From Gemmatimonadota bacterium (GTDB lineage: Bacteria; Gemmatimonadota; Gemmatimonadetes; Gemmatimonadales; GWC2-71-9): a stretch of 64,000 nt of DNA. The translations under genes and the position numbers were made by a program. The stretch lies in NCBI GenBank assembly GCA_003221035.1, contig QHUB01000020.1, positions 1-64,000 on the forward strand. The letters run 5' to 3'. This document shows, piece by piece, positions 47,619 to 53,399 of the stretch; positions within the stretch are counted from its first letter, which is position 1; every line of letters begins with the position of its first letter. The notes under the pieces were generated by a model. It was not told the DNA's origin, searched no databases, and saw only the letters and a list, made by a program, of their open reading frames with translations.

Positions 47619-48110
47619 CTACTGCACTCTCACCAACGTCCCGCGAATCTCGCCTCCGCCATGTGCTTTAGTATGGATGTTCACGTAGGCGCGTCCCTCT
47701 CGAATGATCTGAAAGATAGAGTCTGCTGCGCCGGCCGGAGCCTGGGACCCGATGGTGGCGGTTCCGGTAAAGCCCGCACCCGTCGCGGGAGGATTGAAGT
47801 TCACTTGAACGTTGCCCGCGACAGAATCGGCGGCGCGTCGGTGGATATGTCCCAGAATGATGCTGTCGATCGGCGAATCGATAATGACTTCCCAGCTGAT
47901 CAAACTGTCGCTCAGGAATGTGACGGTGGCGTGACCGGTGGCTGTGGTGGTGACGGGTGTCGGCGCCTCGTTCGCACCATTCAGTGTCGCGGTGTAGACC
48001 TCCAGACCGGCGGGAAGCCCGGTCGAATTGTTATCGCTGCACGCCATGGCGATGGCGCCGACGGTCGAGACAACCGCGGCAGCCATTGTGACCGTTCGCA
48101 ATACGCGCAT
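47619..48110 (-). CDS. CHRD-domain lipoprotein
   Basis: The 163-residue protein has a signal with a lipobox-like MAC (about residue 24) and a CHRD (chordin-like) domain. That domain shows VYTATLNGANEAPTPVTTTATGHATVTF, ILGHIHRRAADSVAGNVQVNF and RAYVNIHTKAHGGGEIRGTLV. Bacterial CHRD proteins are exported beta-domains of unknown role, and the conserved His residues suggest metal binding. ATG 48110 has AAGGAG at five bases. It is the last gene of a minus-strand group after two blue-copper genes. Confidence 0.85.
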   Translation of the reverse strand: MRVLRTVTMAAAVVSTVGAIAMACSDNNSTGLPAGLEVYTATLNGANEAPTPVTTTATGHATVTFLSDSLISWEVIIDSPIDSIILGHIHRRAADSVAGNVQVNFNPPATGAGFTGTATIGSQAPAGAADSIFQIIREGRAYVNIHTKAHGGGEIRGTLVRVQ

Positions 48111-48167
48111 ATCTGTCTCCTTAGGCACGTAATCACAAGTGAAACTGCACAAAGCCTCGTGAACGGG

Positions 48168-48574: not shown

Positions 48575-49609
48575 TCACCTCACCACCACGACGGCCTTCA
48601 TGAACGGATGCGGCGTGCAGTGAAACGCATACTCGCCGGGCTGCGTGAAGGTGTGGCTCCAGCGTTTTCCCGGCTCGATCGCGCCGGAATCCCATGAGCC
48701 GTCATCGGCGGTCACGGTGTGCACGAGGGGATCGTTGTTGGTCCACGTCACCGTCGTGCCGGCGGCGATTTCGAGCCGCTTGGGCCCGAATGCCATCGTG
48801 CGCATCTCGGAATTGACAACGGGGCCAGTCACCACACCTGTCGCGCCTGTTTGCGCCGTTTCGTGCTTTTTGCCGAAGTAGCGACTGAACGTGAAGGGGA
48901 TCGTGAACTCAAACCCACCCCGCACCTTGTCGATACCGCGTGACGCTCCCTGCAGCGTCGCCGTGTTGGTGTTCGTCACCTGCAGTGAGAGCGTATGTGG
49001 GGAATAGGGAATAGCGATCTGCAGTCCCGCGCCCCACGCGGGGTCCTCATTCGTGCGGCGATCGAGCAGCGTCGTGACGTCGCCGGCGAGCGCGAACCAC
49101 CGGTTCAGGCGCACGGTCGCCCCTCCGCCAATCGCGTAACGCGTCGTGTCGCTGTGATAGCCATTGGAGAGCAGGCGCCCCACGGCCAACAGCCGCAGCT
49201 TTCCGAACGCGTGCGCGCCCGTGAGCTCGGCGTCGAAGCTCTCGGCGGCCTGGTTGTAGCCGCCCTGCAGCGCGACGCCACGCGTGCCATAGCGCGCGAA
49301 AAACTCCCACTCGTTGGGAAACGCCGCGGCCACGTCGGAGGAGGTCGCGTAGTTGAAGCCGATGAGCAACGGGAGCGGGAGCTGATAGCTGAGCAGAAAC
49401 GTGGGGGAATTCGTGACTTTGCGGGTCGGCGCATCGCCGACTCCGAATCGGTGGATGAAATTGAACTGCAGCGTGCCGGGCGCGCCGAGCCAGCCGCCGG
49501 AGAGATTGGGGGACCGGTCGAGCGCGGACTGGCACGAGGCTACATCACGCGCTCCAGCCAGAGCGGTGAGGACGCAGGTGACGGATGCGATCCGACCAGG
49601 CAGGTGCAC
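48575..49609 (-). CDS. outer-membrane beta-barrel (DUF5777-like) fused to a C-terminal blue-copper domain
   Basis: The 344-residue protein has a signal peptide (about 1-25). Residues about 40-250 look like a transmembrane barrel of alternating strands: LQFNFIHRFGVGD, FLLSYQLPLPLLIGFNYAT, WEFFARYGTRGVALQGGY, ending FTIPFTFSRYF. This resembles DUF5777 barrels. Residues about 262-344 form a cupredoxin with His297, Cys331, His334 and Met337 in a CTPHPFM loop like that of the next gene. The frame is continuous. The start is GTG 49609 with GAGGAGG upstream, 10 bases after gltX. Confidence 0.75.
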   Translation of the reverse strand: MHLPGRIASVTCVLTALAGARDVASCQSALDRSPNLSGGWLGAPGTLQFNFIHRFGVGDAPTRKVTNSPTFLLSYQLPLPLLIGFNYATSSDVAAAFPNEWEFFARYGTRGVALQGGYNQAAESFDAELTGAHAFGKLRLLAVGRLLSNGYHSDTTRYAIGGGATVRLNRWFALAGDVTTLLDRRTNEDPAWGAGLQIAIPYSPHTLSLQVTNTNTATLQGASRGIDKVRGGFEFTIPFTFSRYFGKKHETAQTGATGVVTGPVVNSEMRTMAFGPKRLEIAAGTTVTWTNNDPLVHTVTADDGSWDSGAIEPGKRWSHTFTQPGEYAFHCTPHPFMKAVVVVR

Positions 49610-49619
49610 GCGGGCCTCC

Positions 49620-50903
49620 TCATGAGTGGGATGCAGCCTCGAGGCGGCGGAGCGCCGCCTCTTTGCCGACGACCGACAATAGCTCGTTCACAGGTTCCGA
49701 CACCGTCCCTCCGGTCAACGCGATGCGAATCGGCTGAAACACCGCGCCGGCTTTCGCGTCTCGCCGTTGTGCCAGATTCCGCAGCACATGCTCCAGTTCT
49801 TCCGCCGTCCAGTCGTTGACCTTCTTCAAGGTCTCGAGAATCGCCGCGAGCATGTCGCGGTAGCCGGCCGGGTCCTTCGCGATTTCCTTCTGTGCTTTGT
49901 CGTCGAGCGTCACGAACTTCGCGTCGAGCCGCACCGCGACCTGCCTCGCAACATCGAGCGTCGTGCGCGATCGTGTCTTCACTGCGGTGATCGCGCGCAG
50001 GATCGCGTCGCGGTCGCCATCGAGATCCAGCTTCGCCAGCTCCGCATGCACGAGCGGGAACAGCTCTTCGGCGGACTTCGCCGTGAGGTACTGCCCGTTC
50101 ATCCACTCCAGTTTGGTCGTGTCGAAGACGGCCGGCTTCTTCAAGATACCATCGAGCGAGAAGAGGTTCCGGAGCTCTTCTTTGCTCATGATTTCGCGAT
50201 CGCCGCCCGGACTCCATCCAAGTAGCGCGAGAAAATTGCGCATCGCTTCTGGGAGAATCCCTAGGTGTTGGTAATCCCCCACAGCCGTCGCGCCGTGTCG
50301 TTTGGAGAGTTTTTTCCCGTCGGGTCCGTGGATCATGGGCACGTGACCAAAAATTGGGGTCGCATGTCCGAGCGCTCGGTACACCGCGAGCTGCTTGGGG
50401 GTGTTGGAAATGTGATCGTCCCCGCGAATCACGTGCGTCACCTGCATGTCGATGTCGTCGACGACCACCGCGAAGTTGTAGAGCGGCGAGCGATCCGACC
50501 GCAAAATCACAAAATCGCGAATATCCTCACCTTTGAAGCTGATCTTGCCGTGGACCGCGTCGTCCCAGGCCAGCTCGCCGGGGGGGACGCGCAGCCGGAT
50601 CGCGTCCTCCTCCATGTACGCTTTGCCTTCTTTCAGCAATTGATCGGCCACCTGCTGGTGACGCGCCAGGCGGGCGCCCTGGAAGATCGGGGCTTCGTCC
50701 CAATCCAAGCCGAGCCAGGTGAGGCCGTCGAGGATGACCTGGGTGTGTTCGTCGGTGGAACGCGCCTTGTCGGTGTCTTCGATCCGGAGCAGGAACTGGC
50801 CGCCCTCTTTGCGGGCAAACAGCCAGTTGAAGAGGGCGGTGCGGGCGCCGCCGACGTGGAGGTAGCCGGTGGGCGACGGGGCGAAGCGGACGCGGATACT
50901 CAT
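49620..50903 (-). CDS. gltX: glutamyl-tRNA synthetase
   Basis: The enzyme charges tRNA-Glu with glutamate. The 427-residue class-I synthetase has RVRFAPSPTGYLHVGGARTALFNWL (HIGH region), RIEDTDKARS, LYNFAVVVDDIDMQVTHVIRG and the KMSKS-like KLSKRHG, then a helical anticodon-binding part. It is somewhat short for a bacterial GltX (about 470). The ATG stands six bases after TATTAT with no ribosome-binding site. The barrel-cupredoxin gene follows 10 bases later, so both are probably on one transcript. Confidence 0.95.
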   Translation of the reverse strand: MSIRVRFAPSPTGYLHVGGARTALFNWLFARKEGGQFLLRIEDTDKARSTDEHTQVILDGLTWLGLDWDEAPIFQGARLARHQQVADQLLKEGKAYMEEDAIRLRVPPGELAWDDAVHGKISFKGEDIRDFVILRSDRSPLYNFAVVVDDIDMQVTHVIRGDDHISNTPKQLAVYRALGHATPIFGHVPMIHGPDGKKLSKRHGATAVGDYQHLGILPEAMRNFLALLGWSPGGDREIMSKEELRNLFSLDGILKKPAVFDTTKLEWMNGQYLTAKSAEELFPLVHAELAKLDLDGDRDAILRAITAVKTRSRTTLDVARQVAVRLDAKFVTLDDKAQKEIAKDPAGYRDMLAAILETLKKVNDWTAEELEHVLRNLAQRRDAKAGAVFQPIRIALTGGTVSEPVNELLSVVGKEAALRRLEAASHS

Positions 50904-50938: not shown

Positions 50939-50990
50939 ATCCTTCATGGTGGAAGTCCGATGCTTGCTCCACCCTTTCCCGAGGATCTCG

Positions 50991-52382
50991 ATGCCGCTTC
51001 TCGTACCGCTGCTGCTCGTGGGACTCACGACCCCCCCACCCCGAGTCGCCACGACTGGCGTCCCTGACCGGGTGCGGGCATATGACGCCATCTACGCCGT
51101 CGTCCGGACCAAGCTGGGCATTCCGAGCTTTTCCCGCCAAACCGGTCTCGCGTGCAACGTCTGTCACACCGCGTTTCCGATGCTCACCGCCTTCGGCCGC
51201 CAGTTCAAGCTCAACGCCTACACGTTGACCGGATTGCAGACGATCGGACCCACCGAGACGACGCCTTCGCCGCTCAAGATCAACCTCATTCCGCCGGTCT
51301 CGACGATGCTGCAGACGTCGTTCACCCAGACATCCAAGGCGCAGCCCGGCACGCAGAACGGCAACGTGGAGTTCCCGCAGGAATTGAGCGTCTTCTTCGG
51401 CGAGGCGATCTCGCCGCGGCTGGGAACGTTCATCCAGATCACGTATGACGGAGCGGAGGGAACGCTGGGGGTCGACAACATCGATCTCCGCTACGCGAAC
51501 CACGCCAAGGTCCTGTCCAAGCGGACGATTTACGGAATCACCGTCAACAACAGCCCGACCGTGCAGGATGTGTGGAACTCGACGCCAGTGTGGGGATTTC
51601 CGTTCGGTTCATCGGGCGTCGCCCCCACTCCCAGCGGATCCCCGTTGATCAATGAAGGATTGGCGCAGAGCGTCGCCGGGATCGGGACCTACGCGCTGTG
51701 GGACGACCATCTCTACGGCGAGGTGTCGGTCTACCGCTCCTCGCCGCAGGGCGGCCCCCATCCCCCGGACGCGACCTCGACCGGGATCATGAAGGGCGTG
51801 ACGCCCTATTGGCGGCTCGCCTACCAGCGGACGTTCGGGACGCAGTACATCGAGCTGGGGACGTTCGGCATGGCATCGCAGTTGTATCCCACCGGCGTCA
51901 CGGGACCCACCGACCATTTCAGCGACGTGGGTGCCGATCTGCAATACGAACGTCACGCAGGGAAAAATGGCGCGGGGACGTTCGTCGTCCACGCGAGCTA
52001 TATCGATGAGCGCCAGACGCTCGATGCCAGCTTTGGCGGCGGAGCGTCTGCCAATGCCAAAAACACCCTGAACACCGTGCGGGCTGATGCGGCGTGGCTG
52101 ACGCCGACGCGCTGGGGCGGCTCGGTCGGCGTCTTCAACACGAGTGGCACCGCCGACACGCTGCTGTATGCCCCGGGCGCGGTCACGGGTAACGCAACCG
52201 GAAAACCCAACAGCAACGGCGTGATCGCCGAACTGCAGTTCATGCCGTGGATCAACACCCGGTTCTCGCTGCAGTATGTGGCGTATCAAAAGTTCAACGG
52301 CGGCACGAGCGACTACGACGGCGCAGGGCGCAGCGCGTCAGCCAACAACACCGTCTACGCACTCGTGTGGTTGATGTTCTAG
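50991..52382 (+). CDS. monoheme cytochrome c fused to an outer-membrane beta-barrel (Cyc2-like layout)
   Basis: The 463-residue protein has a signal peptide (MPLLVPLLLVGL). A short c-type cytochrome follows: FSRQTGLACNVCHTAFPMLTAFGRQFKLNAYTL, with heme site C55-x2-C58-H59. The remaining 370 residues are strand-rich and end in an aromatic residue (VYALVWLMF), as outer-membrane barrels do. A single heme domain before a porin is the layout of Cyc2-type iron oxidases, and the RQTG-CxxCH-P-LT-FGR-FK pattern recalls them. Substrate and direction of electron flow are unknown. ATG 50991 has GAGG six bases upstream. It is divergent from gltX. Confidence 0.75.
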   Translation: MPLLVPLLLVGLTTPPPRVATTGVPDRVRAYDAIYAVVRTKLGIPSFSRQTGLACNVCHTAFPMLTAFGRQFKLNAYTLTGLQTIGPTETTPSPLKINLIPPVSTMLQTSFTQTSKAQPGTQNGNVEFPQELSVFFGEAISPRLGTFIQITYDGAEGTLGVDNIDLRYANHAKVLSKRTIYGITVNNSPTVQDVWNSTPVWGFPFGSSGVAPTPSGSPLINEGLAQSVAGIGTYALWDDHLYGEVSVYRSSPQGGPHPPDATSTGIMKGVTPYWRLAYQRTFGTQYIELGTFGMASQLYPTGVTGPTDHFSDVGADLQYERHAGKNGAGTFVVHASYIDERQTLDASFGGGASANAKNTLNTVRADAAWLTPTRWGGSVGVFNTSGTADTLLYAPGAVTGNATGKPNSNGVIAELQFMPWINTRFSLQYVAYQKFNGGTSDYDGAGRSASANNTVYALVWLMF

Positions 52383-52607: not shown

Positions 52608-52637
52608 TTGAGAAGAACGCGGGCCGGCGGTTACAAT
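52608..52637 (+). promoter_or_regulatory. carbonic anhydrase promoter with leaderless layout
   Basis: -35 TTGAGA (52608-52613), an 18-base spacer and -10 TACAAT (52632-52637) are followed after six bases by ATG 52644. No ribosome-binding site is seen before this ATG. It is among the best promoter matches in the window. Confidence 0.65.
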
Positions 52638-52643
52638 CGGGCG

Positions 52644-53399
52644 ATGGAGAAAAACATGAGCGCCTGCCTCCTGGCCCTGATTGCCGTCGCCCTGTCGTTC
52701 CCTATGGTCGCCGCCGCGCAACATCCGCATTGGGAGTACGAGGGAGAACACGGGCCGACGCATTGGGGGAGTCTCGATCCCGCGTTCCACGCCTGCGATG
52801 CGGGTAAGCACCAATCTCCGATTCCCATCAACGACCCAACGTCCAAGGACCTCCCCGCGATCGAGTTTTCCTACCAGGCCACGCCGCTAAAAATCATCGA
52901 CAACGGGCACACGATTCAGGTGACCTACGCGCCCGGCAGCTTCATCACCGTGAATCATCACAAGTACGAGCTGCAACAATTTCACTTCCATCATCCAAGC
53001 GAAGAGGAAGTGAACGGCAGATCATATCCCGTCGTGGCGCATCTGGTGCACAAGGATTCCACCGGAAAGCTTGCCGTGGTCGCCGTGCTGCTCGATGAAG
53101 GCAAGGCGAACGAGGTCATCCAGGCCATCTGGACCCACCTCCCGGAAGAGCAGGGCAAGGAGGTCGAACGCGTCGGCCTGACCGTAGACGCGACGAAACT
53201 GCTCCCGGCGAGAGGCGGCTACTACACATTCACCGGATCACTCACGACGCCGCCGTGCACGGAAGGCGTGACCTGGTTCGTCTTGAAGACCCCGTCGCAA
53301 ATCTCCGGCGACGAGATCGCCGTGTTCGCAAAGCATTATCCGCACAACGCTCGGCCACTGCAGGCCGTCAATCGCCGCACGATCGTGATGTCGCACTAG
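52644..53399 (+). CDS. alpha-class carbonic anhydrase, exported
   Basis: The enzyme interconverts CO2 and bicarbonate with zinc. The 251-residue protein has a signal peptide (ACLLALIAVALSFPMVAAAQ), then HWEYEGEHGPTHWGSLDPAF, HQSPIPI, and the zinc ligands in ELQQFHFHHPSEEEVNG (His114, His116) and VVAHLVHKD (His133). FTGSLTTPPCTEGVTWFVL carries the substrate-pocket Thr. All are standard for the alpha class, acting in the periplasm. The start ATG 52644 lies six bases from a good -10 box. Its stop overlaps that of the convergent M61 gene in the bases CTAG (53396-53399). Confidence 0.94.
   Translation: MEKNMSACLLALIAVALSFPMVAAAQHPHWEYEGEHGPTHWGSLDPAFHACDAGKHQSPIPINDPTSKDLPAIEFSYQATPLKIIDNGHTIQVTYAPGSFITVNHHKYELQQFHFHHPSEEEVNGRSYPVVAHLVHKDSTGKLAVVAVLLDEGKANEVIQAIWTHLPEEQGKEVERVGLTVDATKLLPARGGYYTFTGSLTTPPCTEGVTWFVLKTPSQISGDEIAVFAKHYPHNARPLQAVNRRTIVMSH

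Follow-up and report, generated by a model that had tools for sequence, protein, structure and literature searches.

Our computational analysis shows that a single gene in the window analysed here (the whole 64,000-nucleotide stretch from contig QHUB01000020.1 of a Gemmatimonadota bacterium) encodes a predicted outer-membrane barrel and a blue-copper domain as one protein. We think it somewhat probable that the barrel anchors a periplasmic type-1 copper domain by a flexible linker and that the protein serves as a copper electron relay, possibly for a solute that enters through the barrel. Many Gemmatimonadota soil bacteria carry the fusion, which looks like a copper counterpart of the iron-oxidising heme porins. 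If this is true, the conserved copper version would mean that redox fusions in the outer membrane can do without heme, and an abundant, poorly cultured soil phylum would gain a testable route of envelope electron transfer. The features of the locus are given in Table 1.

Table 1. Features of the fusion locus, with positions in the window and residues of the fusion protein.
Feature	Position	Strand	Description and basis
Barrel-cupredoxin fusion protein	48575..49609	-	344 aa, GTG start; ORF, Pfam, 47-homolog alignment, AlphaFold2 model
Signal peptide, residues 1-26	49532..49609	-	SPase I type, cleavage before invariant Gln27; homologs read ...AQS here
12-strand barrel domain, residues 46-240	48890..49474	-	Internal beta-signal-like R230-x-G-x-x-F-x-I237
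Linker, residues 241-263	48821..48889	-	Flexible, unconserved, variable length; pLDDT 56-63
Type-1 copper (amicyanin/plastocyanin-like) domain, residues 264-344	48578..48820	-	Ligands H297, C331, H334, M337
gltX (glutamyl-tRNA synthetase)	49620..50903	-	Directly upstream of the fusion; context common within the genus
Free cupredoxin, probable lipoprotein, CTPHPFM loop	48168..48572	-	Pfam; conserved neighbour of the fusion
CHRD-domain protein after the free cupredoxin	47619..48152	-	Family near the fusion in 10 related loci

We found that the AlphaFold2 model, built with 47 homologs (mean pLDDT 88), contains a closed barrel of 12 long strands followed by a cupredoxin at residues 264-343. The first-pass annotation had named the lack of a closed barrel as refuting its reading, and the model passes this check. 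A pTM of 0.69, together with the flexible linker, leaves the mutual placing of the two domains loose in this model. In fold comparisons with VIA-align, the barrel matched FapF (Z 18.1, 3.1 Å over 190 residues), KdgM (Z 17.8, 2.3 Å over 162), the COG4313 channel (16.8) and NanC (16.5), and the C-terminus of the fusion matched amicyanin and plastocyanin with Z of 13-15. The 12-strand channels thus share the barrel fold with the fusion (Z 16-18 over 162-192 residues) at only 9-16% identity, and the solved barrels lack a cupredoxin. The copper domain is also recognised by Pfam (Copper-bind, PF00127, residues 267-343, 49.6 bits against a cut-off of 21.2, E=5.7e-13). Its score against the amicyanin equivalog TIGR02657 is 52.3 bits, below the cut-off of 110.2. 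Amicyanin/plastocyanin-type cupredoxins carry a Cys-x2-His-x2-Met loop, and the CTPHPFM of the fusion aligns identically to that of amicyanin; these proteins are free in the periplasm, whereas the copper domain of the fusion is attached to a barrel.

The barrel gives a weak match to DUF5777 (PF19089) at residues 152-245, with 15.2 bits for the whole protein and 17.2 for the barrel alone, below the gathering cut-off of 23.1 bits. At E<=0.1, 14 of the 36 barrel members tested matched DUF5777, the best with E 8.9e-8; a DUF5777 family search in the relatives returned no match even for the controls, which makes it uninformative. The barrel of the fusion is related to this membrane-bound beta barrel, though the window protein itself falls under the family cut-off; the fusion differs from it by the attached cupredoxin.

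The signal peptide together with a closed barrel of amphipathic strands makes the protein a predicted outer-membrane beta-barrel. All 12 strands alternate between hydrophobic residues outside and polar residues inside, and the last one holds a beta-signal-like motif approximately 100 residues before the C-terminus. OmpA-type proteins likewise place an internal beta-signal ahead of a C-terminal soluble domain. Median lengths of the loops expected outside are 7, 11, 4, 9, 9 and 16 residues, and those of the expected periplasmic turns are 4, 10, 2, 4 and 6, so that among the even loops of the wider family one, with a median of 10, is long too. Given the even number of strands, the mostly longer odd loops and the internal beta-signal, we infer that both termini of the barrel lie in the periplasm, and the copper domain therefore most likely hangs there. 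A lipoprotein reading of VASC at the end of the signal peptide was rejected: relatives lack this Cys, so the Cys at position -1 does not mark a lipobox. The protein has three cysteines in total: C12 and C26 belong to the signal peptide region, C331 to the copper loop.

Conservation extends beyond the copper site. His297, Cys331, His334 and Met337 are invariant in all 47 aligned full-length homologs, and C-x2-H-x2-4-M is present in 80 of the 82 fused domains, the other two being cut by contig ends. P333, P335 and F336 are conserved at 91-97%; in amicyanin, their equivalents line the exposed His ligand as a docking patch. Among the residues predicted to face into the barrel, R54, E100 and D177 are invariant, with D126, R145, R167 and E234 at 91-97%, and the interior is thus a charged ladder of invariant or near-invariant residues. 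Since lumen and copper residues are both conserved, the lumen must be under selection along with the copper site. In comparisons with five close relatives, dN/dS comes to approximately 0.1-0.23 in the barrel and 0.12-0.24 in the copper domain, and the linker drifts while both domains remain under purifying selection.

The conserved lumen bears on whether the barrel is a passive anchor that keeps an electron carrier at the outer membrane without conducting anything relevant, which we judge improbable. The OmpA barrel carries a periplasmic domain, and the fusion resembles it in having a soluble C-terminal domain after an internal beta-signal and a flexible linker of variable length. Plugged barrels are also known in this fold class; the barrel may be narrow or plugged and non-conducting, and its conserved lumen residues could serve folding or a plug. 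However, these residues are conserved as strongly as the copper ligands and a mere anchor would need none of them, while an outer-membrane lipoprotein would be a cheaper way to anchor a cupredoxin.

When genome contigs and 61 related genomes were scanned, full-length relatives turned up with identities as low as 36%. Of 90 non-redundant Gemmatimonadota barrels, 82 continue in frame into the cupredoxin. Of the other eight, two run into contig ends, three are frameshifted and three (L044, L130 and L131) are genuinely barrel-only. A separate cupredoxin gene lies directly after the L044 barrel, and the other two have no cupredoxin at the locus. The barrel profile matches 71 of 298 sampled Gemmatimonadota genomes, approximately a quarter, across several families. 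The fused copper domains cluster on the tree (10 label changes compared to a shuffled mean of 63), a pattern that fits a single fusion event, or a small number of them, after which the copper domain was inherited along with the barrel. These counts, with the fold model, the fold matches and the ligands of the 47 homologs, bear out the first-pass reading of a signal peptide, barrel and cupredoxin with four copper ligands in a single frame. The homologs are not always two separate genes, an outcome that the first-pass annotation had named as refuting its reading.

The same counts leave next to no probability that an assembly or frameshift artefact has joined two genes. The next gene does encode a similar cupredoxin, and the frame is broken in one relative among the 82 (L015/L033, genome G005), where a frameshift lies inside the copper domain and the long frame runs into the neighbouring cupredoxin gene. 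The artefact is refuted because homologs from independent assemblies carry the same fusion in frame, 82 in all, and both barrel and copper domain are under purifying selection (dN/dS approximately 0.1-0.24).

Six exact peptides, scanned against genome contigs, brought up a single frameshifted copy outside MAGs that were unlabelled or labelled Gemmatimonadota. It lies in a MAG labelled Candidatus Sericytochromatia (L071:4827-5947), where remnants of barrel and cupredoxin are split by frameshifts; misbinning or sequence error may explain it. In a tblastn search of plasmids, no place covered most of the fusion protein and the matches listed fell in the copper domain only. One contig (L148, G240:C167) contains two copper-barrel fusions within approximately 4 kb.

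In this genus the fusion sits tightly between gltX and the free cupredoxin, so that the three genes form a transcription-unit-like array, which the first-pass annotation did not mention. A Shine-Dalgarno-like AGGAGG of the fusion gene overlaps the gltX stop codon, and inspection of the sequence placed the fusion stop 2 nt ahead of the free-cupredoxin ATG; the fusion gene and the free cupredoxin are translationally coupled. The free cupredoxin combines CTPHPFM with a lipobox-like ALAC|FSD, in line with the first-pass description of this gene as a lipoprotein with the same ligand loop, and is a probable lipoprotein. At 49 of 75 testable loci the fusion has a cupredoxin neighbour, which in 40 cases bears a lipobox-like motif (e.g., ACFSE). 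This recurrent adjacency makes the free lipoprotein a candidate for the redox partner that the first-pass annotation thought likely. Cupredoxins are the only recurrent neighbours across the phylum: no other strongly recurring family emerged from a Pfam tally of 95 neighbouring proteins from approximately 30 loci. The fusion loci L101, L102 and L104 have as many as three additional cupredoxin genes, lying close together. The CHRD protein follows in relatives of the window, and its copy here has a lipobox-like AMAC.

We also considered copper enzymes as partners. NirK was rejected, with over-cut-off matches in 1 of 25 fusion genomes compared to 5 of 36 others, as was NosZ (7 of 25 compared to 14 of 36); neither tracks with the fusion. 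This matters for the possibility that the barrel is a copper-permeable channel whose cupredoxin receives or buffers copper for periplasmic cuproproteins, in acquisition or resistance. Such a role would suit the acidic residues among those conserved in the lumen and the several cuproproteins of Gemmatimonadota. We nonetheless regard it as unlikely, since the type-1 site has the complete Cys-His2-Met set of an electron carrier and keeps its docking patch, genes for copper efflux or copper chaperones do not recur in fusion neighbourhoods, and NirK and NosZ are unassociated with the fusion.

Returning to an electron relay, the barrel would insert in the outer membrane with both termini in the periplasm, and the copper domain would cycle between Cu(I) and Cu(II). 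It would dock via the hydrophobic patch formed by Pro333, Pro335 and Phe336 around the exposed His334, and may exchange electrons with the neighbouring lipoprotein cupredoxin or with periplasmic cytochromes. Tunnelling across the barrel from a single copper below is implausible, and a small solute must therefore enter if the outside is involved, an argument also made for Cyc2 (PMC8406198). More speculatively, the other partner could be a small redox-active ion or molecule that comes in via the polar barrel, a route suggested for Fe(II) in Cyc2. Several findings count against a relay: neighbours other than cupredoxins are not conserved, NirK and NosZ do not track with the fusion, the placing of the two domains is loose, the barrel may be plugged, and three members are genuinely barrel-only.

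Single-protein redox porins with heme (Cyc2, Cyc572) underlie models of iron oxidation. In Cyc2, a heme domain at the N-terminus is joined to a 16-strand porin, and Fe(II) is proposed to enter through its barrel (PMC8406198). Like the fusion, Cyc2 combines a barrel and one redox domain, expected to be periplasmic, in a single polypeptide, and a substrate may enter through the pore. Cyc2 differs in having heme c, N-terminal, with 16 strands, whereas the fusion has type-1 copper, C-terminal, with 12 strands, and lacks the CxxCH heme motif. Cyc2 is the nearest functional analogue of the fusion and is no relative by the tests made. The first-pass phrase "copper version" of the heme-porin fusions is fair as an analogy, but domain order and strand number show that the design is not orthologous. 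A full copper counterpart of Cyc2, in which the barrel admits a solute and the tethered blue-copper domain acts at the outer membrane as oxidant or reductant of a metal ion or small molecule and feeds a chain of lipoprotein cupredoxins, is conceivable, though we consider it rather doubtful. Cupredoxins have a separate precedent in mineral oxidation, namely the extracellular cupredoxin cluster of Sideroxydans (PMC12016527). We found no earlier description of a barrel-cupredoxin fusion in the open-access literature searched, nor a paper on DUF5777.

The window also contains a heme protein 1.3 kb from the copper fusion (50946-52382, + strand). It has 478 aa, one CNVCH heme motif (FSRQTGLACNVCHTAFPMLTAFGRQFKLNAYTLTG), a long strand-rich tail and no Pfam match, and from its sequence is a candidate Cyc2-like monoheme porin. 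Matches to it occur in 33 of 61 genomes; many of these are weak and restricted to the heme segment. Another heme-barrel protein, with the motif CQACH, is encoded at L040:1483-2778 (+), 76 nt ahead of a copper-fusion frame on the same strand, and the same is seen at L125; the heme barrel at these two loci is only distantly similar to the heme porin of the window. A neighbouring heme porin was rejected as a fixed partner, being adjacent in only part of the genus. Further along, at 52608-53399 (+ strand), the window encodes a carbonic anhydrase of the eukaryotic (alpha) type that seems to carry a signal peptide.
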